Part shown: piece by piece, positions 9,070 through 35,617 of the stretch | Numbering within the stretch: the first letter of the stretch is position 1 | Layout of the letters: each line of letters starts with the position of its first letter | Source of the DNA: Flavobacteriaceae bacterium | GTDB lineage: Bacteria; Bacteroidota; Bacteroidia; Flavobacteriales; Flavobacteriaceae | Direction: 5' to 3' | Assembly: GCA_027073495.1 (NCBI GenBank) | Contig: JALSVQ010000017.1 | Coordinates: 1 to 64,000, forward strand | DNA: 64,000 bases | Notes under the pieces: model-generated | What the model was told of the DNA's origin: nothing | What the model saw: only the letters and a program-made list of their open reading frames with translations | Databases searched by the model: none | Made by a program: the position numbers and the translations under genes

Positions 9070-9558
9070 ATGAAACTAAAATTTTTGACTGTAGTAGCTC
9101 TTGGAGCACTAATGATGACAAGTTGTGGTGGTGATGACAAAAAAGCAGCAAAACCTGCTGAAAAAGCACCAGCTAAACAGGAAGCACCTAAAAAATCAGC
9201 TAAAATAGATTTAACTGCACCAACTCTAGACAACAAAGGGATTGGTAAATTTAAAGATGTAAAAATAGCAGATAAAATAGATGACGCTATGGTTGCCAAA
9301 GGAAAAGAAATTTATAAAACACACTGTACTACTTGTCATAAAATTAAAAAACGCTATATTGGTCCTGCTTTAAAAGGAGCTACTAAAAGACGTTCTGCGG
9401 AGTGGATTATGAATATAATAACAAACTCTAAAGAAATGTTGGAAAAAGACCCTGTAGCCAAAGCTTTAATTGCAGAATATCATGCGCCAATGGCTGAGCA
9501 AAAGCTTAAAGATGAGGAAGTTCGTGCAATTTATGAATACCTTAGAACAAAAAATTAA
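9070..9558 (+). CDS. c-type cytochrome lipoprotein
   Basis: Lipobox MMTSCGG; heme motif CTTCH; distal HAPM as probable Met ligand region. Confidence 0.93.
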   Translation: MKLKFLTVVALGALMMTSCGGDDKKAAKPAEKAPAKQEAPKKSAKIDLTAPTLDNKGIGKFKDVKIADKIDDAMVAKGKEIYKTHCTTCHKIKKRYIGPALKGATKRRSAEWIMNIITNSKEMLEKDPVAKALIAEYHAPMAEQKLKDEEVRAIYEYLRTKN

Positions 9559-9591
9559 TACAAATTTTAACAACAATTAATTTATATCAAA

Positions 9592-11589
9592 ATGAAAACA
9601 ATTTTAAAAAGTATATTTGCTTTTTTGGTAACAGCTACATTTTTAGTGAGTTGTGCACCTACGGAAGCAGGTAAGGAAACAAGAGGAAATGCTAAAGGAG
9701 CTATTTCGGGTTCTGCAGCAGAAAAAACATATGTTGCCCCAGGTAAATATGATTCGCATTATGCATTTATTTCTGGTGGTTTCTCTGGTCAATTAGCTGT
9801 TTATGGTTTGCCTTCTGGTAGATTATTTAGAGTAATACCTGTTTTTTCTCAAGATCCTGAAAAAGGATATGGTTATAATGAAGAAACAAAACCGATGTTA
9901 ATGACTTCTCACGGTTTTGTGCCTTGGGGAGATTCACACCATCCAGACATTTCACAAACTAATGGTACAGTTGATGGACGTTGGGTATTTATCAACGAAA
10001 ACAACACACCACGTATTGCACGTATTTCTCTAAAAACATTTGAAACAGAAGAAATTATTGAGATTCCTAACTCAGCAGGTAACCACTCATCTTCTTTTGT
10101 AACAGAAAATTCAGAATATGTAGTTGCAGGTACACGTTTTGCTGTGCCAATTCCACAACGTGATATATCTATAAAAGATTATAAAGGAAATTTCAAAGCT
10201 TCTTTATCATTCTTAAAAATAGATAAAGAATCAGGTCATATGAATATTGCATTCCAAATTAGAATGCCTGGTTTCAACTATGATTTATCACATCCAGGTC
10301 GTGGAAAATCACACGGATGGTTCTTCTTCTCTACGTATAACACAGAAGAAGCAAATACATTGTTAGAAGTTAATGCATCGCAAAATGATAAAGATTATAT
10401 AGCAGCAATTAACTGGAAAAAAATTGAAGAATATGTAGCTAATGGTGGAGGTAAAAAAGAGCCTGCTCGTTATGCGCATAACCTTTGGAATGATGACGCA
10501 CATTCAGCAACTAGTACTATAGAAAAACAAGTATTAGTAGTTGAGCCTAAAGATGTACCAGGAGCAATATACTTCTTGCCAACAGCAAAATCACCACACG
10601 GTTGTGATGTAGATCCAACAGGAGAATACATTATTGGTAATGGTAAATTGGCTGCAGCAATGACTGTACACTCATTTACTAAAATGCAAAAAGCAATAAA
10701 AGACAAAGCTTTTGATGGTGATGCGTATGGTATTCCAATCATTAAATTTGAAGCGGTAAACTATGGCGTTTTAGACCAACCAGGTTTAGGACCACTACAT
10801 ACTGAGTTTGATACAAGAGGAAATGCATATACAACATTCTTTATCTCTTCTGAGGTTGTAAAATGGAATATAAAAGACCTTAAAGTTATTGACAGACATG
10901 CTGTTTATTACTCAGTAGGTCACTTAATGATACCAGGAGGAAACTCTAGAACACCAGATGATAAATATTTGGTTGCAATGAACAAAATTACCAAAGACCG
11001 TTATTTACCAACTGGTCCTGAAGTGTGTCAATCGGCGCAATTATTTGATATTTCTGGAGAAAAAATGGAATTATTGTTAGATTTCCCTACTATTGGAGAA
11101 CCGCATTATGCAGCAGGTATTGCCGCTGATAAAATAATGGGTAAAACTACAAAAATCTATAAATTAAGTGAAAACAAACATCCTGATGCTGTAAAATCTG
11201 AAGCAGAAACAAAGGTTGTTCGTAAAGGTAATGAAGTACACATCTATATGTCTATGATTCGTTCACACTTCTCACCAGATAATATTGAAGGTGTACGTGC
11301 TGGAGACAAAGTGTTCTTCCATATTACAAACTTAGAGCAAGATTATGATGTGCCACATGGTTTCTCAATGATTGGGGCAAATACTTCTGAATTATTGGTT
11401 ATGCCAGGTAGAACAGCTACTGTAATTTGGGAACCAAAAGAAGTTGGTGTATGGCCATTCTACTGTACAGACTTCTGTTCTGCATTGCACCAAGAAATGC
11501 AAGGATATGTTCGTGTATCAGCTAAAGGTGCAAACACACCTTTAACATACACTTTAGATAGTGATGTACCAGGTGCTGAAGAAGAATAG
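9592..11589 (+). CDS. nosZ: Nitrous oxide reductase, clade II-like (Sec/lipoprotein signal)
   Basis: YGLPSGRLFRVIPVFSQDPEKGYGYNEETKPML...; CuA motif FYCTDFCSALHQEMQGYVRV; lipobox LVSCAP and no twin-arginine motif. Confidence 0.97.
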   Translation: MKTILKSIFAFLVTATFLVSCAPTEAGKETRGNAKGAISGSAAEKTYVAPGKYDSHYAFISGGFSGQLAVYGLPSGRLFRVIPVFSQDPEKGYGYNEETKPMLMTSHGFVPWGDSHHPDISQTNGTVDGRWVFINENNTPRIARISLKTFETEEIIEIPNSAGNHSSSFVTENSEYVVAGTRFAVPIPQRDISIKDYKGNFKASLSFLKIDKESGHMNIAFQIRMPGFNYDLSHPGRGKSHGWFFFSTYNTEEANTLLEVNASQNDKDYIAAINWKKIEEYVANGGGKKEPARYAHNLWNDDAHSATSTIEKQVLVVEPKDVPGAIYFLPTAKSPHGCDVDPTGEYIIGNGKLAAAMTVHSFTKMQKAIKDKAFDGDAYGIPIIKFEAVNYGVLDQPGLGPLHTEFDTRGNAYTTFFISSEVVKWNIKDLKVIDRHAVYYSVGHLMIPGGNSRTPDDKYLVAMNKITKDRYLPTGPEVCQSAQLFDISGEKMELLLDFPTIGEPHYAAGIAADKIMGKTTKIYKLSENKHPDAVKSEAETKVVRKGNEVHIYMSMIRSHFSPDNIEGVRAGDKVFFHITNLEQDYDVPHGFSMIGANTSELLVMPGRTATVIWEPKEVGVWPFYCTDFCSALHQEMQGYVRVSAKGANTPLTYTLDSDVPGAEEE

Positions 11590-11617
11590 TATCTTAAATT
11601 AGTATAAAAATTCAATT

Positions 11618-11651
11618 AGCGGGTAATTAAGAATTGATTACCCGCTTTTTT
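11618..11651 (+). terminator. Intrinsic terminator after nosZ
   Basis: agcgggtaat-N9-attacccgct followed by T-run. Confidence 0.9.
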
Positions 11652-11729
11652 AATACTGATATTTATCATTTTTTACAAATAAACTATTGATAATTAATAT
11701 TTTATATAAAATACTTTTTACTGTTTTAT

Positions 11730-11774
11730 GTAACAAACATTACCTTAATAATAGGTCGAAAAATTGTAAATTTG
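11730..11774 (+). promoter_or_regulatory. Candidate FNR/CRP-like dyad gTAACaaacATTAc (11730-11743) plus -7 TAAATTTG (11767-11774)
   Basis: TAAC-N4-ATTA dyad centred 30.5 bp before a consensus -7 element. Confidence 0.45.
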
Positions 11775-11812
11775 TAGTACTAAATTAAAAGAAACAAATA
11801 AAAAATTATATC

Positions 11813-12433
11813 ATGAAAAAATCACAACTATTAATGTTTGTAGGTGCTTTATTGTTAGGCGCATTATATCTATTTCCTTTATGGAAAATCACTTTGATTG
11901 CACCACAATATCCAGAACCACTAGGTTTAAATATTCATATTACACACCTATCAGATGGTGTGCAGTATAATGATGTTAAAAACATTGACTTATTGAACCA
12001 TTATATTGGTATGGCACATCTTCCAACAGAAGAAAATGTAGCAAAAAAAGAAGTAAAACCATTTATTGAGTTTACTATTTTTCCTATCGTTATAGGTGTT
12101 ATGATTGCTTTAGGTATTCTTGTGGCATTCAAAGGAAATAAAAAATGGTATCTGTATTGGCTTATCATTATGATTTTGCTCGGTATAGCAGGGCTTACCG
12201 ATTTCTATCTGTGGTTAGATACGTATGGACATAATCTTGACCCTAATGCTATTCTGAAAATTACCGATAAAGTAACAGGAAAACCAATGGGATATCAACC
12301 GCCGTTCTTTGGTTACAAAAAGCTTTTAAACTTTGAAGTATATTCATATCCAGCACTAGGAGCCTATTTTATTGCTGCAGGTATGGCACTTTCTTTCTTA
12401 GCTTTTATAACGGGAAAAAAAGAAACAAAATAA
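11813..12433 (+). CDS. Four-TM membrane protein of nos cluster, NosB-like by position
   Basis: Four predicted TM helices; lies directly downstream of nosZ as nosB does in clade II clusters. Confidence 0.65.
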   Translation: MKKSQLLMFVGALLLGALYLFPLWKITLIAPQYPEPLGLNIHITHLSDGVQYNDVKNIDLLNHYIGMAHLPTEENVAKKEVKPFIEFTIFPIVIGVMIALGILVAFKGNKKWYLYWLIIMILLGIAGLTDFYLWLDTYGHNLDPNAILKITDKVTGKPMGYQPPFFGYKKLLNFEVYSYPALGAYFIAAGMALSFLAFITGKKETK

Positions 12434-12453
12434 CACTAAATTTTTCAAATAAT

Positions 12454-12491
12454 AACGAGTATTTTTTTAACTAAGAATACTCGTTTTTTTT
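12454..12491 (+). terminator. Intrinsic terminator (aacgagtatt ... aatactcgtt + T-run)
   Basis: Perfect 10-bp stem followed by T8; abuts the next -7 element. Confidence 0.88.
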
Positions 12492-12492
12492 G

Positions 12493-12500
12493 TATCTTTG
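12493..12500 (+). promoter_or_regulatory. Predicted -7 element TATCTTTG for nosLDFY
   Basis: Matches TAnnTTTG, 21 bp before the nosL ATG. Confidence 0.55.
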
Positions 12501-12520
12501 ATGTACAAATAAAAAATCTT

Positions 12521-12964
12521 ATGAAAACTACATATAAAGTACTTTTGCTACTAGCAGTAAGTCTATTTTTTACAGCTTGTGGTATAGAGCCAAAGCCCCT
12601 AGCTTATGGAGATGATCACTGTTCACTCTGCGATATGACTGTGGTAGACAAGACGCATGCGGCTGAATATACAACCAAAAAAGGAAAGTCTTTTCCTTTT
12701 GATGCTGTAGAATGTTTGGTTTGGAAAATCAATAAAACACATAACGAAGATGAACTTGCGTTTATACTTGTAGCAGATTATCTGCACCCTGGGAAACTTA
12801 TCAATGCAAAAGATGCAACGTATCTTATTTCTGAAGGTATTCAAAGCCCTATGGGAGCCAATCTTTCTGCTTTTGCTACAAAAGAAGCAGCGCAAGCAAA
12901 ACAAAAAGAATTTAAAGGTGACCTGTTTAATTGGGAACAGTTAAAAAACCATTTAAAAAAATAA
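12521..12964 (+). CDS. nosL: NosL copper chaperone lipoprotein
   Basis: Lipobox FFTACG; copper motif CSLCDM; in nos cluster. Confidence 0.93.
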   Translation: MKTTYKVLLLLAVSLFFTACGIEPKPLAYGDDHCSLCDMTVVDKTHAAEYTTKKGKSFPFDAVECLVWKINKTHNEDELAFILVADYLHPGKLINAKDATYLISEGIQSPMGANLSAFATKEAAQAKQKEFKGDLFNWEQLKNHLKK

Positions 12965-12965
12965 T

Positions 12966-14234
12966 ATGCGTTATCTTTTAGGTCTTTTTTTATTGTTTAG
13001 CTTTCAGCTTCAAGCAAAAACCATTACTGTTTGTAGTACTTGCAAGGTAAAAACTGTTGCAGCAGGTGTTGCCTTGGCAGCAGATGGTGATACCGTATTG
13101 GTCAAAGCTGGTCTATACAAAGAAACCAACATAGAAATAACCAAAGCCATTAAAATCATAGGCGAAGGGTTTCCTGTATTGGATGCTGAAGGAAAGAAAG
13201 CAAATATTTTTCATAGTGAAAACACAGCAGGTTTCACCATATCAGGTTTTAAGTTTATTAATGTTGGTATGAGTTATACCAAAGAAATAGCAGCTGTTTT
13301 TACCTATCGTTGTGATGATTTTACGATAAGTAATAATAAAGTAGATATGTGCTTTTATGCATTTATGATGCAACGTGCTAATTCTTCACAGCTTATCAAT
13401 AACAAAATTCACGGTAAGGCTGTAAAAGAAACAACTTCTGGTAATGGTATTCACCTTTGGAAATGCGATGATATGAATATTATTGGCAATGTAGTAGATG
13501 GCATGCGTGACGGTATTTATTTGGAACACGTGACCTGCAGTTTGATTACTAACAATATAAGTAAAAACAATGTACGCTACGGTTTGCATTTTATGTTTTC
13601 TGATAATAATGATTATTATGACAATGAATTTATGCGTAGTGGTGCCGGTGTAGCTGTGATGTTCTCAAAGCATATCACCATGAGAAACAATCTGTTTCAC
13701 CTCAATTGGGGAACTGCCTCTTATGGTTTGTTACTCAAAGAAATATACGATGGCTTTATTTATGACAATATATTTGATCAAAACACCATTGGTATTAATA
13801 TTGATGGTTGTAACCGTATTAATTATAACAATAATAAATTTATAAAAAATGGTTGGGCATTAAAATTTACAGGAGGATGCTATACCAATATTTTTAATAC
13901 CAATGATTTTATGTCTAATGCCTTTGATTTATCCTATAATAGTCATTTAAATGATAATGAATTTAAATACAATTACTGGAGTGAATATACTGGTTATGAT
14001 TTGGATAGAGACGGTATTGGTGATGTGCCATTTCGTCCTGTAAAATTATTCTCTTATGTAGTGAATAAAACACCAGAAAGTTTGATATTACTCAGCAGTT
14101 TGTTTGTAACGATTATTAATTTTTCGGAGAAAGTTTCGCCTGTATTTACCCCAGACAATTTAAAAGATGCTACGCCAATGATGAAACCAGTAGTTAGTAT
14201 AATAAAACCTTCAAACAAAGATTTGACCCAATGA
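12966..14234 (+). CDS. nosD: NosD periplasmic copper-processing beta-helix protein
   Basis: Signal peptide, CASH/parallel beta-helix repeats, NYWSEYTGYDLDRDGIGDVPFRP motif. Confidence 0.95.
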   Translation: MRYLLGLFLLFSFQLQAKTITVCSTCKVKTVAAGVALAADGDTVLVKAGLYKETNIEITKAIKIIGEGFPVLDAEGKKANIFHSENTAGFTISGFKFINVGMSYTKEIAAVFTYRCDDFTISNNKVDMCFYAFMMQRANSSQLINNKIHGKAVKETTSGNGIHLWKCDDMNIIGNVVDGMRDGIYLEHVTCSLITNNISKNNVRYGLHFMFSDNNDYYDNEFMRSGAGVAVMFSKHITMRNNLFHLNWGTASYGLLLKEIYDGFIYDNIFDQNTIGINIDGCNRINYNNNKFIKNGWALKFTGGCYTNIFNTNDFMSNAFDLSYNSHLNDNEFKYNYWSEYTGYDLDRDGIGDVPFRPVKLFSYVVNKTPESLILLSSLFVTIINFSEKVSPVFTPDNLKDATPMMKPVVSIIKPSNKDLTQ

Positions 14235-14938
14235 TTCAAATAGAAAAATTACATAAGAAATTTGGAAAACTTACCGTTTTAGATGGTTTGGATTTAACAA
14301 TACAAAAAGGCGGAATATTTGCCATTTTAGGACCTAATGGTTCGGGTAAAACTACTTTAATAAAATGCTTACTAGGGATGGTAGTTCCAGATAAAGGAAA
14401 TATCATTTTAGATGGCAAACCCATTTTAAAACAATGGAAATACCGTAATGATTTAAACTATTTACCACAAATAGCCAATTTTCCTGTTAACCTTAGCGTT
14501 AAAGAATTGATAGCTATGGTCAAAAATTTACGACCAAAAGCTTCCAATGAGCAAGAATTAATAGATTTGTTTGGACTCAACCCTTTTATGAAAAAGAAAT
14601 TGGGAAATCTCTCTGGAGGAACCAAACAAAAGGTCAATTTGGTACTTACCTTTATGTTTGATAGTGATTTAATCATTCTCGATGAACCAACAACAGGACT
14701 TGATCCTATAGCGCTTATCTATTTAAAAGAATTGATAGCCAAAGAAAAAGCCAAAGGGAAAACCATATTAATCACCACACACATTATGAGTTTGGTCGAT
14801 CAAATGGCAGATGAAATTGTATTTTTATTAGACGGAAAAATCTATTTCAAAGGGAGCGTATCAGCACTCAAAACACAAACAGAACAAGACAGTTTAGAAC
14901 ATGCCATAGCGCATTTAATCTCAAAACAATATGCTTAA
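14231..14938 (+). CDS. nosF: NosF ABC transporter ATP-binding protein
   Basis: Walker A GPNGSGKTT, signature LSGGTKQKV, Walker B LIILDEPTTGLDP; overlaps nosD and nosY. Confidence 0.94.
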   Translation: MIQIEKLHKKFGKLTVLDGLDLTIQKGGIFAILGPNGSGKTTLIKCLLGMVVPDKGNIILDGKPILKQWKYRNDLNYLPQIANFPVNLSVKELIAMVKNLRPKASNEQELIDLFGLNPFMKKKLGNLSGGTKQKVNLVLTFMFDSDLIILDEPTTGLDPIALIYLKELIAKEKAKGKTILITTHIMSLVDQMADEIVFLLDGKIYFKGSVSALKTQTEQDSLEHAIAHLISKQYA

Positions 14939-15713
14939 AATATTAAAATACAGTATTTACGATCTTTTACGTAGTAGATGGAGTTATGTTTACTTTTTCT
15001 TCTACCTTATCTTGGGTTTTGTATTGTTCTTTTTGAACAATAATCTAGACAAAGCCATTACGACCATAATGAACATCATCGTGATTCTCACGCCGCTTAT
15101 CGGGACTATTTTTGGAGTGATGTATTACTATAATTCCAAAGAATTTACAGAACTACTATTGGCGCAACCCATTAAACGAAGTACTATTTTTATGGGACAA
15201 TATTTAGGAATTTCTTTATCACTAACCTTGAGTTTGGTATTGGGACTTGGTATTCCTTTTGCTTTGTATGGTTTGTTCCGTTCAGCTGCTATATTTGACT
15301 TTAGCTTACTGCTACTCGTTGGTTTTTTCTTAAACTTTATCTTTGTAGCATTAGCCTTTAATATAGCTATTACGGTAGATAATAAAATAAAGGGCTTTGG
15401 TTATGCTATCTTGATGTGGTTATTTTTTGCTGTAATCTATGATGGTATTTTTATGATTACTCAAAATATTTATAATGAATATCCAATTGATAAATTTTCA
15501 TTGGCAGCCACTATGATTAACCCTATAGATTTATCTCGTATTTTGATAATGCTAAAGCTTAATTTGTCGGCATTACTAGGTTATACTGGCGCTATTTTTA
15601 AACAGTTTTTTGGAAGTAACCTTGGATTTTTTATATCTATGGCAGTACTCATACTTTGGATTGTACTTCCTGTACTGCGTATGCGCGTAAAGTTAAAAAA
15701 GAAAGATTTTTAA
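14931..15713 (+). CDS. nosY: NosY ABC-2 type permease
   Basis: Six-TM ABC-2 permease immediately after nosF. Confidence 0.92.
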   Translation: MLKILKYSIYDLLRSRWSYVYFFFYLILGFVLFFLNNNLDKAITTIMNIIVILTPLIGTIFGVMYYYNSKEFTELLLAQPIKRSTIFMGQYLGISLSLTLSLVLGLGIPFALYGLFRSAAIFDFSLLLLVGFFLNFIFVALAFNIAITVDNKIKGFGYAILMWLFFAVIYDGIFMITQNIYNEYPIDKFSLAATMINPIDLSRILIMLKLNLSALLGYTGAIFKQFFGSNLGFFISMAVLILWIVLPVLRMRVKLKKKDF

Positions 15714-17729: not shown

Positions 17730-17804
17730 TATTTTTTTTTTTGATTTATAGAAACAAAGATATAAATTTTAATCAATAAACTGGTATTTTTAATTAAAGT
17801 AGCT

Positions 17805-18122
17805 TGTGATAAAGCGTACGCTCCCTATTCAAAGTTTAAAGTAGGTGTGGCATTATTATTAGAAAAAGGCAAAATAATATTGGGTAACAATCAAGAAAAT
17901 GCTGCTTACCCTTCAGGAATGTGCGCAGAGCGTGTAGCCATTTGGAAAGCGCATTCCGATTTTCCAGATGTCAAAATGGTTAAAATGGCACTAACCATAA
18001 AATCAGAGAAACAAGTGATTAAATCACCCGTTCCTCCTTGTGGTGCTTGCAGACAATCCATTGCTGAATACGAAGTGAAACAAAAAAGCCCTATAGTCAA
18101 TTTATTCTCGAATATTGGCTAA
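17805..18122 (+). pseudogene. cdd: Cytidine deaminase fragment lacking N- and C-termini
   Basis: In-frame DKAYAPYSKFKVGVALLLEKGKIILGNNQENAAYPSGMCAERVAIWKAH...PVPPCGACRQSIAEYEVKQKSPI, then unrelated tail VNLFSNIG and stop; no start codon upstream before an in-frame TAA. Confidence 0.8.
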
Positions 18123-18260
18123 TTTTTATTTTAATATGTTATTCAAATAAATTCAAACAAGGACTAGACCCCATTTCAACCCTATCACAACTTGTTTTTC
18201 TCATTTTTATTAAGATGTTTGTCGTCCTGAATAACAGGAATAACTTTAAATAATTTTAGA

Positions 18261-22837: not shown

Positions 22838-23098
22838 TTAAGCCTCAAAAGGAACAATAGAAACATAAGATTTGTTATCTCTCTTTTTAGTGAATTTCAC
22901 TAATCCATCAACTTTGGCGTGCAATGTATGGTCTTTTCCCATATATACATTTTCACCAGGATGATGTTGTGTTCCGCGTTGTCTAATAATGATGTTACCA
23001 GCAATAGCTGCTTGGCCACCAAATATTTTTACACCGAGTCTTTTACTTTCTGACTCTCTACCATTCTTCGAACTACCTACACCTTTCTTATGTGCCAT
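22838..23098 (-). CDS. rpmA: 50S ribosomal protein L27
   Basis: [29 protein letters not shown]...[28 protein letters not shown]. Confidence 0.98.
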
Positions 23099-23144
23099 AA
23101 TGTTTTATGTTTTAGGTTAATTATTTTATTTAATAAAAATCAGA

Positions 23145-23879
23145 TTACGCTTTACCGCCATCTAATTCATCTTGCCATTTTTTTAAAGCATCCCAATCAC
23201 CTTCTGCAGCCATTTTAGCTTGTGCAGGCCAAGTTGTTGGGTCGTGCATTCTATATCTGCTACCTGCAGCATCTAAGATAGCTTGGATATCTGCTAAATC
23301 TGCAGCAGCTAATTTTGCAAATGTTTCAAAACCTCCATCGGTTAATAAACCTGCTATTTTTGGCCCAATACCTTCTATTTTTTTAAGATCATCACCTTTG
23401 CTAACTTTTTTTGTAGCTTTTTCTTTGGTAGCTGGTTTTTCAGCTTTAACAGCAGTTTCTTTTTTCACTGGGTTTTTAGCAGCTGGTTTTACAGCGGCAA
23501 CCGTTTCTTTTTTTACTGCTTTTTTAGCAACTGGTTTAGCTTTAGCAGCTTTTTTAGTTGATTTGTGACCAGAAGCAACAATGCTTTCGATAACTAATTC
23601 AGTTAAATACTGACGGTGTCCATTTCTAAGTTTGTAACCTTTTCTTCTTTTCTTTTTGAAAACGATTACTTTATCTCCTTTTAAGTGTTTTACCACCTTG
23701 GCAGTCACTGCTGCTCCTTCGATAGCTGGGGCGCCAATGGTTACTGCTCCATCATCTATAAGAAGTACATTATCAAAGGTCACATTTGCGCCTTCATCTT
23801 CTTTTAAACGATGTACAAATAACTTTTGATCTTTAGCAACTTTAAATTGCTGCCCTGCTATTTCCACTATTGCGTACAT
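23145..23879 (-). CDS. rplU: 50S ribosomal protein L21 with Lys/Ala linker and C-terminal helix-hairpin-helix extension
   Basis: L21 domain ([14 protein letters not shown]...[25 protein letters not shown]) followed by [44 protein letters not shown]. Confidence 0.96.
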
Positions 23880-24189
23880 ATAATACAGTTTAATTTGTTA
23901 TTAAATACATTAAAAATTGTCTGCAAAGATAATAAAAATAATTAAAACACAATATTGTTTTTAATTATTTAAAACTTAAACGTTTTAAATAAAGCTAAAT
24001 AATTCTTTGCAAGAATATGTTTATTCTAAAAAAAATGCTACTTCAAAAGCACACTTCAATTGAGTACGATGTGTTTTTTGAGGGGAATCACATCAGAAGC
24101 TATTTTTGAGAGGAAAATAGTGTTAAGTTTTGAAGGGCTGTCTAATGACAACCCTTCTTTAATTATATGTACCGCTACAGATAGACAAA

Positions 24190-25197
24190 TTACACTTCGT
24201 AGGTTTCTCCACTAAAAAACAAATCATCTACTTTAGTAAATTTAGAATTTGCCTTAACTTCTTTGGTTAAAGCATCTTCACGTTGTTCATAGGTTAACTC
24301 TTCAGAAGCTCTAATAATACCCGTAACCATTGGATATTCTAATTTTGCCAACATGGTATGCAATGTATTATCGTGTTCTTTTGCATTATGAATTAATATA
24401 TCTTCTTCTTTAACACCATTTTCGCCAATAGTAACAACTTCTAATTTTAATCCGTTAAGTATTAAACCTTTGTTTTTTTCTTTACCAAAAATCATTGGTT
24501 TTCCATGCTCAACAAGTAGTTGTTTATCTTCTCTAACCGTTTTATCTGTATATTGTGTAAAACATCCATCATTAAAAATAACACAATTTTGCATCACTTC
24601 TATTAAAGACGTTCCTTGAAATTTTTCCGCTTCAATAAAAGTTTTAGTCATTTCTTTAGGATTATTTCCTGCTAATCGCGCAAAGAATCGCGCATTAGCT
24701 CCCATTGCTAAAACACCAGGAGAAAACGGTGGTTGTGTATTTCCGTAAGGTGAAGTTTTTGTTTTTTGACCGATTAATGAAGTTGGCGAAAATTGCCCTT
24801 TGGTCAAACCATAAATTTCATTATTAAAAAGAATAATATTAATGTTAACATTTCTTCTTAACACATGTATAAAATGATTTCCTCCAATAGCCAATGAATC
24901 ACCATCACCTGTTATAGTCCAAACACTTAATTCTGGATTGGCTAGTTTAGTACCAGTAGCAATTGCAGCTGCTCTACCGTGAATACTATGCATCCCATAA
25001 GTATCCATATAATACGGAAAACGCGAAGAACACCCAATACCAGATATAAATACCACATCTTCTTTTTTTATGCCCATTTCAGGAAGTGCTTTTTGCATCG
25101 ATCTTAAAATTACATAGTCATCACAACCAGGACACCATCTTACTTCTTGATCACTTGCAAAATCTTTAAATGTATATTTTTTTACTGCTGTATCCAT
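24190..25197 (-). CDS. korB: 2-oxoacid:ferredoxin oxidoreductase subunit beta
   Basis: VRWCPGCDDYVILRSMQKALPE; GIGCSSRFPYYMDTYGMHSIHGRAAAIATG; TPP motif GDGDSLAIGGNH. Confidence 0.95.
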   Translation of the reverse strand: MDTAVKKYTFKDFASDQEVRWCPGCDDYVILRSMQKALPEMGIKKEDVVFISGIGCSSRFPYYMDTYGMHSIHGRAAAIATGTKLANPELSVWTITGDGDSLAIGGNHFIHVLRRNVNINIILFNNEIYGLTKGQFSPTSLIGQKTKTSPYGNTQPPFSPGVLAMGANARFFARLAGNNPKEMTKTFIEAEKFQGTSLIEVMQNCVIFNDGCFTQYTDKTVREDKQLLVEHGKPMIFGKEKNKGLILNGLKLEVVTIGENGVKEEDILIHNAKEHDNTLHTMLAKLEYPMVTGIIRASEELTYEQREDALTKEVKANSKFTKVDDLFFSGETYEV

Positions 25198-27044
25198 TAT
25201 AGTAGTGTTTTAAATTTTTGAGTTAATTCATTTGCACCAAAAGGCAAGCCTTGAATTTTATTGTATTGTGAAAATATAAATTCAGGAAAGTTACTTCGTA
25301 ATAGCATAACTAACTGTCCATTATTTAATTCACAAACTATTATTTTTTTAAATTTAGCAAATACTGCTGCTGTATTTTTTGGCATCGGATTGATATAATT
25401 AAAATGCGCATGACCTATTTTAAGTCCTTCGTCTTCTGCTAATTTTTTTGTAGCCGAATGTAACGAACCAAATGTTCCTCCCCAACCAACAACGAGTAAG
25501 TCACCTTCTTCATTAAAATCTGCTTTTAAATCTGGGATACTATTTTGTACGCGTTGTACTTTTTCAGCTCTTATTTTGGTCATATATTCATGGTTCTTTG
25601 GAACATATGATACATTTCCTGTAGTTTTATCTTTTTCTAACCCACCAACACGATGCTCAAAACCCTCTGTGCCGGGAATAGCCCATGCTCTAGCTAAAGT
25701 TTCCGTATCTCTATCATATACATTCCATGCTTCAGAATTGCTACCTGCTGCAATTTTTTTATTCGAAATACTAGGCATATCATTAATCGATTTTATTTTC
25801 CAAGGCTCAGAACCATTAGCAATATATCCATCGGTTAATAATAAAACAGGTGTCATATGCTCTAAAGTGAGCTTTGCCGCTTCGTAAGCCCAATCAAAAC
25901 AATTGGCAGGCGTACTTGCAGCAATAACGATTAATGGACTTTCTCCATTACGACCATACATAGCTTGTAGCAAATCCGATTGTTCCGTTTTTGTAGGTAA
26001 TCCTGTTGAAGGACCACCACGTTGCACATCGACAATTACTAAAGGTAATTCTAAAATCATGGCTAAACCAACAGCTTCACCTTTTAAGGCTAAACCTGGT
26101 CCAGAAGTAGTAGTAATGGCCAAATCTCCAGCAAAAGAAGCGCCAATAGCAGACGTAACCCCTGCAATTTCGTCTTCTGCCTGAAAAGCTTTTACACCAA
26201 AATGTTTATGTTTTACCAATTCGTGTAATATATCAGAAGCAGGCGTAATAGGATAAGAACCTAAAAACAATTCCAATCCAGATTTTTCAGCAGCAGCTAA
26301 AAATCCCCAAGCCGTTGCTGTATTACCATTAATAATACGGTATTGCCCTTTTGGCATTTTTGATGGCGCAATAACATATGAATTTGGAATTAACTCTAAT
26401 GTTTCAGCAAAATAGAAACCAGTTTTTAATACTTTTGAATTTGCCTCAGCTATAATTGGCTTTTTAGCAAATTTCTTTTTAAAGAAATCTAAAGTATGTT
26501 CCATATCGCGATGGTACATCCAATAAACCATTCCTAAAGCAAACATATTTTTACTTCGTGTAATAGATTTATTATCTAATCCCATTCCAGATAATGCTTC
26601 TTTGGTTAATGAAGTCATAGCAACTTCGATAACGCGATAATTATTTAAACTTCCATCTTCTAGTGGATTACTTGCATAAAGTGCTTTTTCTAAATTCTTT
26701 TTTGTAAATGAATCGGTATCAACTATTATGGTATGACCGGGTTTTAATGCCTCAATATTGGTTTTTAAAGCCGCAGGATTCATACAAACTAATAAATCTA
26801 AATCTTCACCAGGAGTACATATCTCCACACTACCAATATGTACTTGAAAGCCACTTACACCATAAAGACTCCCTTGAGGTGCTCTAATTTCTGCAGGATA
26901 GTTTGGGAATGTAGCTACATCATTTCCAAACATAGCCGAAGTATCGGTAAACTGCATACCTGTAAGTTGCATGCCATCGCCAGAGTCACCAACAAAACGG
27001 ATAACTACATGATCTAATGCTTCTTCTTTATTTTTTATTGCCAT
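25197..27044 (-). CDS. korA: 2-oxoacid:ferredoxin oxidoreductase subunit alpha (gamma-alpha fusion)
   Basis: VIRFVGDSGDGMQLTGMQFTDTSA (gamma domain); AFQAEDEIAGVTSAIGASFAG; DVQRGGPSTGLPTKTEQSDLLQAMYGRNGE. Confidence 0.95.
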   Translation of the reverse strand: MAIKNKEEALDHVVIRFVGDSGDGMQLTGMQFTDTSAMFGNDVATFPNYPAEIRAPQGSLYGVSGFQVHIGSVEICTPGEDLDLLVCMNPAALKTNIEALKPGHTIIVDTDSFTKKNLEKALYASNPLEDGSLNNYRVIEVAMTSLTKEALSGMGLDNKSITRSKNMFALGMVYWMYHRDMEHTLDFFKKKFAKKPIIAEANSKVLKTGFYFAETLELIPNSYVIAPSKMPKGQYRIINGNTATAWGFLAAAEKSGLELFLGSYPITPASDILHELVKHKHFGVKAFQAEDEIAGVTSAIGASFAGDLAITTTSGPGLALKGEAVGLAMILELPLVIVDVQRGGPSTGLPTKTEQSDLLQAMYGRNGESPLIVIAASTPANCFDWAYEAAKLTLEHMTPVLLLTDGYIANGSEPWKIKSINDMPSISNKKIAAGSNSEAWNVYDRDTETLARAWAIPGTEGFEHRVGGLEKDKTTGNVSYVPKNHEYMTKIRAEKVQRVQNSIPDLKADFNEEGDLLVVGWGGTFGSLHSATKKLAEDEGLKIGHAHFNYINPMPKNTAAVFAKFKKIIVCELNNGQLVMLLRSNFPEFIFSQYNKIQGLPFGANELTQKFKTLL

Positions 27045-27164
27045 TTTAAGCTAATTTTAAGTTTGTTGATAAATAGTATTAATGGACTATTTATTAATTG
27101 GCAAATTTAGAATAAATAAGTGTAATGATTCCGTTCTTACAGCAATATTTTAAGAAACTATTTA

Positions 27165-27305
27165 GTCACCAATAAATTTTAATCCAACACTTATAATATT
27201 AGCTTTAAAACCGTTGCATCATTTCTATATGATTAAAATTAAATCTCGTATTTTTATGCCATATTTTCCGATTTGGAATTTTGTAAATATATCATAACAT
27301 TTTAT
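27165..27305 (-). pseudogene. Frameshifted 3' remnant of a DUF3570-type gene
   Basis: DNA similarity to the 3' end of the intact gene (28013-28155); encodes ...CNGFKANIISVGLKFIGD* versus intact DNGFKANIVSIGMKFVGD*, with in-frame stops and compensating indels. Confidence 0.85.
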
Positions 27306-27365
27306 ACTCGTTAAATAATGTAATTTTAATCAATTAATAACGACTTACAATTTAAAACCAACCAA

Positions 27366-27980
27366 ATGCTATTAGTATTACATTTTATTTTAGGAATAAT
27401 CACTTCTTTTTTAGGTTCATTAGCACCAAGCATGCTCAATATGACTGCTGCAAAAATTAGTTTAACCAAAGGTAAAAATGAAGCTATGAAATTTGCTTTT
27501 GCAGTTTCTATTATAGTATTGATACAAGCTTATGTTGCCACTTTATTTACACGCTATTTACGTAAAAATCCTACTTTTGTTCAGTCTTTGCAAAAAATAG
27601 CCTTAGTTATTTTCGCTTTGTTAGCAGTTTATTTTTACTTGCAATTTAAAAAAGATAAAGTAAAAACTACCAAAGATAAAGGTTACAAAAATGCATTTTT
27701 AGTTGGTCTGCTACTTTCGTCTTTAAATATGTTTTCCATTCCATTTTATTGTGGTATTACTACCGCTTTAGATCTTGCAGGTTGGTTGGAGTTTTCGCAA
27801 GTCTATATCATTGCATTTGTTTTTGGTTCGGCTATTGGCACTTTTTTACTTTTATTTATGTATTTAAATTATGCAGAAAAAATACAAGCTAAATCAAAAG
27901 GATTATCAAAAAATTTAAATCTAATTTTAAGTATTTTAACAGGAGTTTTGGCTTTGGTTACTTTGTTTAAAGTGCTTTAA
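27366..27980 (+). CDS. LysE/RhtB-type exporter-like membrane protein
   Basis: Six-TM pattern; LGSLAPSMLNMTAAKISLTKGKNEAMKFAFAVS resembles the LysE N-terminus. Confidence 0.75.
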   Translation: MLLVLHFILGIITSFLGSLAPSMLNMTAAKISLTKGKNEAMKFAFAVSIIVLIQAYVATLFTRYLRKNPTFVQSLQKIALVIFALLAVYFYLQFKKDKVKTTKDKGYKNAFLVGLLLSSLNMFSIPFYCGITTALDLAGWLEFSQVYIIAFVFGSAIGTFLLLFMYLNYAEKIQAKSKGLSKNLNLILSILTGVLALVTLFKVL

Positions 27981-28014
27981 TAAAATTTTAAAACAGTAGC
28001 AACACATCCATTAT

Positions 28015-29448
28015 TTAATCACCTACAAACTTCATCCCAATACTAACAATATTAGCTTTAAAACCGTTGTCTCGTTGATAATGATTAAAATTAAGTGTCA
28101 TGTTTTTCATTCCAAATTTTCCAATATGGAATTTTGTAAAAATATCACGGTACTTTACACCAAGACCAAACTGGTTAGATGAAAAAGGTGACAAATCATA
28201 ATCTGAAGTGTAATATTGCTCTGTAGAAAGATGTTTCTCATAAGGTGCAAAATAATCAATAGCTGTTTGCGTATAATAACGATAGTTTGGGTAGAGTGTA
28301 AATTTATCACCAAGTTTAATGGGCAATTCTAATTTGACTGTATGAGAGCGCATGCCCCAATCATCGGTATAATAGCGGTAATAGGTTTTAAACACCAAAT
28401 GTTCATTAATATATTGATGAAAACGCATGCCAAAAGGCAATTTTAATCTGCTGCTAGGCAGACGTTCAATATCATCGGAAAGCTGAAAAACACCTTGATT
28501 TTGTTTGGTAGTATAAACAGGGATGTAAGCTGGTGTTCCGATATAAAAATTGGCTTTATCAGCAAAATAAACACGCTGCATCGGACTTGACAACCACCCT
28601 TTTTGCATCACAATATCTGTAAAAAATGAAATTTGAGATTTTTTGCTCAATATTTGAGAAAAACTGAGTGAAACTGAATAGGTATTTCGTGCATTATTCT
28701 CAACTAAATTGGTGCTTACAGCACGCCAAGCATTGGGCGCGCTTTTATTAATGATATAGCCATTTTGATTATAAATTTTCTCGCCATTGAAAAAACCATA
28801 ATTAAGGTTTCCTCCACTGTGTTTGTATTCTATTATTTCAGTTGGATAAACAGGGCGCCAATTGTCTAAATAAATTGTTGCGCTAAGTCCTATTTCGGTA
28901 TTTTTTTGATTGAACTGCTTGCTCAATCCACCTCCAAAACCAAAAGAGAAATAATCAAATTCATTAGAAATACTCATATGTGCTGTACTTATAGTATTTC
29001 TATCATCAGAAGAATGACTGTAGCTAAAATTACCACTTGTCCAAACATCTGATTTTGAAGCTCCAGAAGAAATCAACCAAGGTGAACCGTTTGTGGTGCC
29101 ACCGCCACTATATTCACTAGTGGATGCTCCAGAAAAAGGATTGAGATTGCTCGAAGAAGCTGAACTATACGCAGAAATAGTAGCATCTATAGCCAGTACA
29201 TCGTCATCATTGAGTGGTATAGAAACAGAAATATCTGTGGCTGCATCAACTAACTCTTCTGAGCCAATACCACCGGTAACTGCTGCATTATCTCCATTTT
29301 GTCCATACACACTTCCTAATAAATCTATTTCGGTAGTTTCTAATACGCGTTTTTTATAGGTTTCCGTTTCTTGAGCATAGCTTGTAGCCATACTAATTAC
29401 AAAAAATAATATGCTAATTATTTTTATTTTTATATCGTTTAATTGCAT
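28015..29448 (-). CDS. DUF3570 domain-containing outer-membrane protein
   Basis: Barrel-like protein ending DNGFKANIVSIGMKFVGD; start adjusted to ATG 29448, overlapping the DUF4266-like stop. Confidence 0.8.
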   Translation of the reverse strand: MQLNDIKIKIISILFFVISMATSYAQETETYKKRVLETTEIDLLGSVYGQNGDNAAVTGGIGSEELVDAATDISVSIPLNDDDVLAIDATISAYSSASSSNLNPFSGASTSEYSGGGTTNGSPWLISSGASKSDVWTSGNFSYSHSSDDRNTISTAHMSISNEFDYFSFGFGGGLSKQFNQKNTEIGLSATIYLDNWRPVYPTEIIEYKHSGGNLNYGFFNGEKIYNQNGYIINKSAPNAWRAVSTNLVENNARNTYSVSLSFSQILSKKSQISFFTDIVMQKGWLSSPMQRVYFADKANFYIGTPAYIPVYTTKQNQGVFQLSDDIERLPSSRLKLPFGMRFHQYINEHLVFKTYYRYYTDDWGMRSHTVKLELPIKLGDKFTLYPNYRYYTQTAIDYFAPYEKHLSTEQYYTSDYDLSPFSSNQFGLGVKYRDIFTKFHIGKFGMKNMTLNFNHYQRDNGFKANIVSIGMKFVGD

Positions 29449-29651
29449 CCACATCCGCCACCAGCTTTACCACCATTGGCACCAGCAGCACCCTCACGAT
29501 AGACTTGAAATGTTGTTTCAAATTTTTGTTCTTTACGAGTTGACAAAGTCATATCAGGATCGTTAATTGTTACTTTCTCATACGGTTTTACTGCTACACA
29601 AGATGATAGGAGTGTAAGCAGTAGCACTGCTGTTAATAATTTATTGACCAT
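29439..29651 (-). CDS. DUF4266-like small lipoprotein
   Basis: Lipobox LLSSCVAVKPYEK; C-terminal GGKAGGGCGCN. Confidence 0.85.
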   Translation of the reverse strand: MVNKLLTAVLLLTLLSSCVAVKPYEKVTINDPDMTLSTRKEQKFETTFQVYREGAAGANGGKAGGGCGCN

Positions 29652-30627
29652 TAGTTTTTAGTTTTATAGTATTAGAAGTATGTATTTTTCCTTGATCATC
29701 AATAAGGATGCAAGCTGTATTTTTTAATTGATTAATTCTGTTTAAACCCGTTTCTACACCCATTACAAAAAGTGATGTAGCCAACGCATCTGCAAGTTCT
29801 GCACTTGATGCAAAAACACTCGCACTGATTATACCCGAAGCAGGAACACCTGTTCTCGGATCAATAATATGCGAATAGCGTTTGCCATTAAAAACAACGT
29901 ATTTTTCATAGTTTCCCGAAGTTACAATAGCACCTCGTTTTAAAGGCAATACAGCAAATGCTTTGTGTTTATTCATTGGGTTGGTTATTGCTACTTCCCA
30001 ATACTTCCCATTAGGTTGTTTGCCCCAAGTGTTCATATCTCCAGAAGCATTAATTATACCTGCTTTTACTCCTTTAGATTGTAAGAGTTTTTTGGCAGTA
30101 TCAGCTGCATAGCCTTTACCAATAGCTCCAAAACCGATACGCATTCCTTTTAGTTTAAGAAATACACTGTGGTCTTGACCATTCATTATGATGTTTTTAT
30201 AACCTACTTTAGATACAGAAGCAGCGATAGCTGCAGCACTAGGAAAAGTCTTCATAGAACCATCAAATTTCCATATTTTATCCATTGATGCGTAACTAAT
30301 ATCAAATGCGCCATCGGTAAGCTTCGATATTAATTTTGCACGGCTAATGAGATTAAACAGCTCTTCACTTACAACTACAGGTTTAATACCTGCATTGGCA
30401 TTGATTCGAGAGGTTTCTGAAGTGCTATCCCAAGAAGATATCAGTTTTTCTATACGTTTTATCTCAGTAATAGCGTCTTGAATACGCAACTGGGCAATAC
30501 TATCATTTTGGCAAACTACTGTTATTCCAAAATCGGAACCCATAAGGAGTAACTTTTTTTGAAAAACCTGCTGTGCTTGTGTTGTGTTTACAAAAGTAAA
30601 TAGGAATAGTATCAATGCTTTTTTCAT
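29641..30627 (-). CDS. apbE: FAD:protein FMN transferase
   Basis: MGSDFGITVVCQND; GFGAIGKGYAADTAKKLL; INASGDMNTWG; YSHIIDPRTGVPASG. Confidence 0.95.
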   Translation of the reverse strand: MKKALILFLFTFVNTTQAQQVFQKKLLLMGSDFGITVVCQNDSIAQLRIQDAITEIKRIEKLISSWDSTSETSRINANAGIKPVVVSEELFNLISRAKLISKLTDGAFDISYASMDKIWKFDGSMKTFPSAAAIAASVSKVGYKNIIMNGQDHSVFLKLKGMRIGFGAIGKGYAADTAKKLLQSKGVKAGIINASGDMNTWGKQPNGKYWEVAITNPMNKHKAFAVLPLKRGAIVTSGNYEKYVVFNGKRYSHIIDPRTGVPASGIISASVFASSAELADALATSLFVMGVETGLNRINQLKNTACILIDDQGKIHTSNTIKLKTNGQ

Positions 30628-30631
30628 GGTA

Positions 30632-31066
30632 TCAGAATGCGTTTAATAATTCAAAGTAATCTGTTGGTGTTCGGTTTCTATCATAGCTTGTACTGCCTAA
30701 AACCTTACCGTTTTTATCCAATACAACAACATAAGGAAAATAGCCATGAGGATTGTATTGCGCTGCTAAGATATCATTTTTTTCTTGTTGTGCTTTTGCT
30801 AATTGGTTTTTCTTTTTTCTTGGAAAATCTGCTTTAAGCATTACAAATTTACCTTTAGCCAGTTTTTGAAAAGTCGTTGAATTCCAAATGGTACGTTCGA
30901 GTTTTATACAAGGCGCGCACCAATCAGAACCTTGAAACACGAGTATTATTTTTTGATTATTATTTTGTGCTTTTTTTTGCGCTTGTGCAAGGTCGTAATT
31001 CCAGTCTTGCGCTTGTACGTTGATTATGCTTAATAATAGAATAAATAAGAAGATTGCTTTTTTCAT
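30632..31066 (-). CDS. Thioredoxin-fold protein, exported
   Basis: Signal peptide; FQGSDWCAPCIKLERTIW; YFPYVVVLDKNGKVLG. Confidence 0.92.
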   Translation of the reverse strand: MKKAIFLFILLLSIINVQAQDWNYDLAQAQKKAQNNNQKIILVFQGSDWCAPCIKLERTIWNSTTFQKLAKGKFVMLKADFPRKKKNQLAKAQQEKNDILAAQYNPHGYFPYVVVLDKNGKVLGSTSYDRNRTPTDYFELLNAF

Positions 31067-34543: not shown

Positions 34544-35617
34544 TTAAAAATCAAATCGTAGTTGTACTGACATTGATTTTTTGGAAACATTGTCCAAGTT
34601 TGAAACAGAAATACCTAATAGGCGCACCGATTCTTTGGGTTTTTCTTGATACAATAACGCTTTGGCAATACTAAACAACATGGAAGCATTATTGGTGAAT
34701 GTGTTTGTGGTTTTACTCCGTGTTTGTATCGAAAAATCGCTGTATTTTATTTTTAGTGTAATGGTTTTTCCCTTTATGTTGCTTTTGGTCAAACGCTCTT
34801 GAAGTTTTTTTGCTATTTTTTCTAGTTCAGCTTCCATATAAACCTCAGAAGTGAGATTGGTTTCAAAAGTGTGTTCTGCCGCAATAGATTTGGTGGTTCG
34901 GTTGGGTTTTACAGCACTCTCATCTATACCACGTGCCAACTGATAATAGCGCACGGCTGAATTGCCAAAATTTTGTTCTAAAAAATCTAGTGATTTATCA
35001 CGCAGTTCTTTTCCTGTAAAAATACCAAGGTTAAGCATTTTCTTAGCTGTAACTTTGCCAATACCAAAGAATTTTTGAATGGGTAAATCTGCCACAAAAT
35101 CTAAAATTTCATTTGGTGCTACGGTCTTTTGACCATTGGGTTTATTGTAGTCTGAAGCTATTTTTGCTATAAATTTATTGCTTGATATTCCTGCAGAAGC
35201 AGTTAATCCTGTTTCGTTATAAATCTGTTCACGAATATCACGTGCTATTAGTGTTGCCGAAATACGTTTTTTTTTATTGAAGGTAACATCCAAAAAAGCT
35301 TCATCAAAAGACAAAGGCTCTATAAGGTCTGTATATGTTCTAAAGATTCCGCGTATTTGGTTAGATAATAATTTGTAGCGTTTAAAATCTGATGGTACAA
35401 AAATAAGTTCGGGACATCGTTTTTGCGCCACAACACTACTCATTGCTGATCGGATACCAAACTTACGTGCTTCATAACTCGCTGCAGAAATAACGCCGCG
35501 TTGATGTGGCGAACCTACAACTACAGGTTTTCCTCGTAGTTCTTCATTGTCTAATTGAGCCACAGCAGCAAAAAAAGCATCCATATCGACATGTATTATT
35601 TTTCGCTGCTGTGTCAT
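34544..35617 (-). CDS. dinB: DNA polymerase IV (Y-family)
   Basis: KIIHVDMDAFFAAVAQLDNEELRGKPVVVG; PLSFDEAFLDVT; GIGKVTAKKM. Confidence 0.97.
   Translation of the reverse strand: MTQQRKIIHVDMDAFFAAVAQLDNEELRGKPVVVGSPHQRGVISAASYEARKFGIRSAMSSVVAQKRCPELIFVPSDFKRYKLLSNQIRGIFRTYTDLIEPLSFDEAFLDVTFNKKKRISATLIARDIREQIYNETGLTASAGISSNKFIAKIASDYNKPNGQKTVAPNEILDFVADLPIQKFFGIGKVTAKKMLNLGIFTGKELRDKSLDFLEQNFGNSAVRYYQLARGIDESAVKPNRTTKSIAAEHTFETNLTSEVYMEAELEKIAKKLQERLTKSNIKGKTITLKIKYSDFSIQTRSKTTNTFTNNASMLFSIAKALLYQEKPKESVRLLGISVSNLDNVSKKSMSVQLRFDF

Follow-up and report, generated by a model that had tools for sequence, protein, structure and literature searches.

A decayed second DUF3570 3' end beside a LysE-type gene at a flavinylation cassette of a Flavobacteriaceae bacterium

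In a stretch of 64,000 nucleotides from a Flavobacteriaceae genome (the window) a LysE-type gene lies between two copies of the 3' end of a DUF3570 gene. One copy belongs to an intact gene, which is part of a flavinylation cassette, the other is a decayed stub next to korA. The explanation we favor, with a probability of about 0.5, is a rearrangement scar: the LysE-type gene was a late arrival that became attached to the chromosome where DUF3570 ends, leaving a truncated stub beside korA.

The repeat and the decay of one copy

The two copies form a direct repeat of 149 bp with about 79% identity, both on the minus strand and 853 bp apart (local alignment score 166). The repeat is real and far above chance: aligning the stub region with the whole DUF3570 gene gave a score of 160, whereas about 400 windows drawn at random from the same sequence scored no higher than 58. 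The original prediction, which had described a direct repeat of the DUF3570 3' end with one decayed copy, is confirmed, and its coordinates as well as the peptides CNGFKANIISVGLKFIGD and DNGFKANIVSIGMKFVGD, both terminated by a stop codon, are correct. It had also proposed indels and in-frame stops. Read on the gene strand, the stub has indeed lost one base and later gained one and contains two in-frame stops, one TGA and one TAG, both of which lie inside the match found by tblastn in the bacterium's own genome (E = 1.3e-9). After correction of the frame 30 of 144 bases differ from the resident 3' end.

Toward korA, homology between the copies extends 3 bp beyond the stop codon of DUF3570; on the LysE side it breaks off abruptly with a sharp boundary at 27307. 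The flanks downstream of both stop codons show no significant likeness (local score 16, 95% shuffle value 18). A protein search of the whole genome returned the stub as the sole other DUF3570 copy, and a DNA search of the genome with the whole cassette gave only matches of up to 48 bp elsewhere.

From left to right korA is followed after 114 bp by the stub, after a further 58 bp by the LysE-type gene and after another 31 bp by the right-hand copy with its DUF3570 gene (Table 1). The LysE-type gene, placed between the copies by the original prediction, is the only gene-sized ORF found there. Onward from DUF3570 lie the genes for the DUF4266-like small protein, ApbE and the thioredoxin-like protein, all on the minus strand.

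Table 1. Features of the locus, with coordinates in the window
Feature	Coordinates	Strand	Basis or remark
korA-type 2-oxoacid:ferredoxin oxidoreductase subunit, left neighbor of the stub	25197..27044	-	Precedes the stub by 114 bp
Decayed stub of DUF3570 3' end	27159..27307	-	One base lost, one gained, two in-frame stops
Stretch between the copies: LysE leader, gene and tail	27308..28011	+	No terminal inverted repeats seen
LysE-type gene, 204 aa	27366..27980	+	Homologs match PF01810; own protein falls short of E = 1
Right-hand copy, at the 3' end of intact DUF3570	28012..28160	-	Alignment
Intact DUF3570 gene, 479 aa, two SGAS flavinylation motifs (residues 108, 130)	28015..29454	-	Pfam PF12094
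DUF4266-like small protein, 70 aa, ending GGGCGCN (CXC motif)	29439..29651	-	Position and motif as in PMC8238504, not profile
ApbE (FAD:protein FMN transferase)	29641..30627	-	PF02424
Thioredoxin-like protein	30632..31066	-	PF13899

The position of the stub beside korA is confirmed in a separate genome record. Contig G423:C110 (L173) is about 98% identical to positions 22884-27177 of the window and covers korA before it ends 19 bp into the stub; it says nothing on the LysE-type gene. Its last 133 bp, these 19 bp included, are identical to the window. Genome G423 has been placed in another genus and has 3% contamination; this contig is probably a misbinned one from the window's species.

Of 44 comparable residues the stub shares 30 with the resident gene and no more than 23 with any relative, and it lacks residues conserved without exception among the 32 relatives compared. 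Since it is closest to the resident gene and has lost the invariant residues, the two copies are sisters and the stub is dead.

Three further observations were made in the window. Positions 9070-15713 (+) look by eye like a nitrous oxide reductase (nos) gene cluster, with a cytochrome c, a NosZ-like protein and NosL/NosD/NosF/NosY-like proteins. At 17765-18128 (+) a cytidine deaminase homolog is about 30 residues short at each end compared to the 160-aa L033 protein and may be a decaying gene. An ORF of 244 aa at 23145-23879 (-), named by eye, resembles ribosomal protein L21 and has a long lysine/alanine-rich, helix-hairpin-helix-like C-terminal extension.

The flavinylation cassette

A cassette of ApbE, DUF3570, thioredoxin-like and DUF4266 proteins has been described, together with the demonstration that ApbE flavinylates a DUF3570 protein of such a cassette at two [S/T]GA[S/T] motifs (eLife 10:e66878, PMC8238504). 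The window's cassette has the same four parts, with a candidate for DUF4266, in the order seen in relatives. Its DUF3570 protein is accompanied by ApbE and a thioredoxin-like protein and contains two such motifs, both SGAS. Pfam matches were obtained with PF12094 for DUF3570 (E = 1.8e-41), PF02424 (E = 1.8e-85) and PF13899 (E = 5.3e-14); DUF4266 proteins are small and secreted, with a C-terminal CXC, and the candidate here, an ORF in the right place ending in GGGCGCN, was assigned by position and motif and not by profile.

The thioredoxin-ApbE-DUF4266-DUF3570 set is conserved among relatives. The window's cassette differs from the others in having a LysE-type gene and a DUF3570 stub directly downstream: in the flanks of the DUF3570 loci of 37 distinct relatives, often only about 1.5 kb long, neither a second DUF3570 3' end nor LysE or korA was found. 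It is hardly credible that foreign genes repeatedly integrate at DUF3570 3' ends and leave a dead 3' end every time; there is one instance here and none at the 37 other loci.

The LysE-type gene

The window's LysE-type protein gave no match to PF01810, the LysE-type translocator family, up to E = 1, whereas 11 of 12 aligned homologs match this profile. The name "LysE-type" therefore rests on the homologs, by which the protein is judged to be a putative diverged member of the family. DsbD-like electron carriers require a pair of membrane cysteines. The LysE-type protein has a single cysteine (residue 129), and a role as a carrier of this kind for the cassette was rejected.

The neighborhood of the LysE-type gene changes from genome to genome. 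Homologs are located beside gdhA and dinB in G228, G137 and G155 (in G155 with one extra gene between), near gdhA and thiol peroxidase in G248 and beside another pair of genes in G395 and G423. The genome to which the window belongs carries gdhA on a different contig, with no LysE alongside. korA was located in seven relatives, never with DUF3570 or LysE beside it; in four of them a small ferredoxin-like gene is transcribed divergently from korA.

LysE of the window and G248 are 83% identical, compared to 78% between the genus-mates G248 and G423. The corresponding values of the window and G248 are 79% for gdhA, 68% for ApbE, 59% for DUF3570 and 62% for dinB, the last being a weaker yardstick because the window's dinB forms a long branch of its own. 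The trees are likewise incongruent: in the LysE tree window, G248 and G423 form a clade (support 100/99), whereas in the gdhA tree the window falls outside the G248/G423 genus (support 97/98). Since LysE reaches 83% identity to another genus and dinB and DUF3570 of the same pair only about 60%, these comparisons suggest a horizontal gain of LysE by the window's lineage, with transfer possible in either direction. LysE and the cassette have separate histories. The window's dinB (34544-35617, -) lies about 6.5 kb from LysE in an orientation different from that in G228, G137 and G155, where the two genes adjoin closely; it is an outlier, with 60-63% identity to all relatives compared to 67-86% among them.

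Possible origins of the locus

The LysE leader resembles the leader of its nearest homolog (G248, L105) from about position 27310 onward, although in a short and weak alignment. As this similarity starts about where the stub stops, 27307/27308 probably is the breakpoint joining DUF3570 sequence to LysE sequence; the coincidence is suggestive only. Insertion-duplication is a general mechanism by which a scar is left when foreign DNA recombines. We propose that the LysE-type gene arrived late in the lineage, horizontal transfer being the probable way, and that it became linked to the chromosome where DUF3570 ends. The most likely route would be recombination of incoming DNA in which LysE adjoined a DUF3570 3' end. 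This joining would have left two DUF3570 3' ends around LysE, that of the intact gene and the 149-bp stub beside korA. Having neither a start nor the flavinylation motifs, the stub would be free of selection and would have decayed by indels and stops.

The locus resembles an insertion-duplication scar in that a truncated 3' copy on one side of the acquired gene faces an intact copy in the same orientation on the other side. It differs in that the copies have already diverged by about 21%, so that the event is not directly readable. Several points count against the scar account: this divergence of 30 in 144 bases, a possible difference in age between LysE and stub, the short and weak leader similarity, the unlike flanks downstream of the stop codons and the long branch of the window's dinB. 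Transposon insertion was rejected: there is no inverted repeat at the insert ends 27308 and 28011 and no transposase. No empty site in the same genus turned up in the 400 family genomes and the viral contigs searched, the window's genus being represented by one genome; nor did a donor in which LysE adjoins a DUF3570 3' end, which is a further point against. The original prediction of a duplication or recombination with one decayed copy agrees with the evidence, and a separate arrival of LysE is backed by its incongruent phylogeny; that a single event made both the stub and the LysE insertion is, like the route of this event, what we infer.

Instead of an in-place duplicate, the stub could also be all that is left of an older second cassette with DUF3570, a tandem paralog beside korA of which the rest was deleted, with LysE added in a separate event. 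Some relatives do have two DUF3570 genes, and the differences between the copies are more conservative than predicted for neutral change (P = 0.0014). This pattern is partly explained by selection on the resident copy alone, and in simulations allowing for such selection (144 bases) a functional phase before decay was favored only 2 to 4 fold over immediate decay. The relic of an entire second cassette, offered as an alternative in the original prediction, finds no direct support, as no trace of a further ApbE, thioredoxin or DUF3570 5' part was detected in the window or the genome; deletion is possible, and the genome is 88.6% complete. We regard this origin as conceivable, if on the unlikely side. 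An allele replacement, with the stub as a remnant of the DUF3570 gene originally resident here and with LysE and the present cassette entering together from a related strain, would account for the copies being diverged sisters and for the stub's place beside korA. However, identities of the present DUF3570 (59-62%) and ApbE (68-70%) to the genus sharing the LysE are unremarkable, so these genes did not arrive along with LysE from that genus, and the replacement appears doubtful.

The stub is very unlikely to have been retained because it serves as spacer or promoter DNA. It does sit between the divergently transcribed korA and LysE, and the identical 133 bp at the end of the same-species contig might point to conservation, but at about 98% overall identity only about 2 differences are expected in this length, so that zero is unremarkable. 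No Bacteroidetes-type promoter match was found in the stub, and sigma-70-type matches remained within about 1.4 standard deviations of shuffles; a promoter function thus has no support from either type.

In summary, no function is indicated for the stub, and the locus reflects genome rearrangement of an ordinary kind, without signs of anything functionally new. The position of LysE is no reason to regard the gene as a functional partner of the cassette for flavinylation, because this position looks like a late accident. If a single event did produce stub and insertion, the stub would mark the arrival of a horizontally gained transporter. The value of the finding lies mostly in this caution and in a small piece of genome history.
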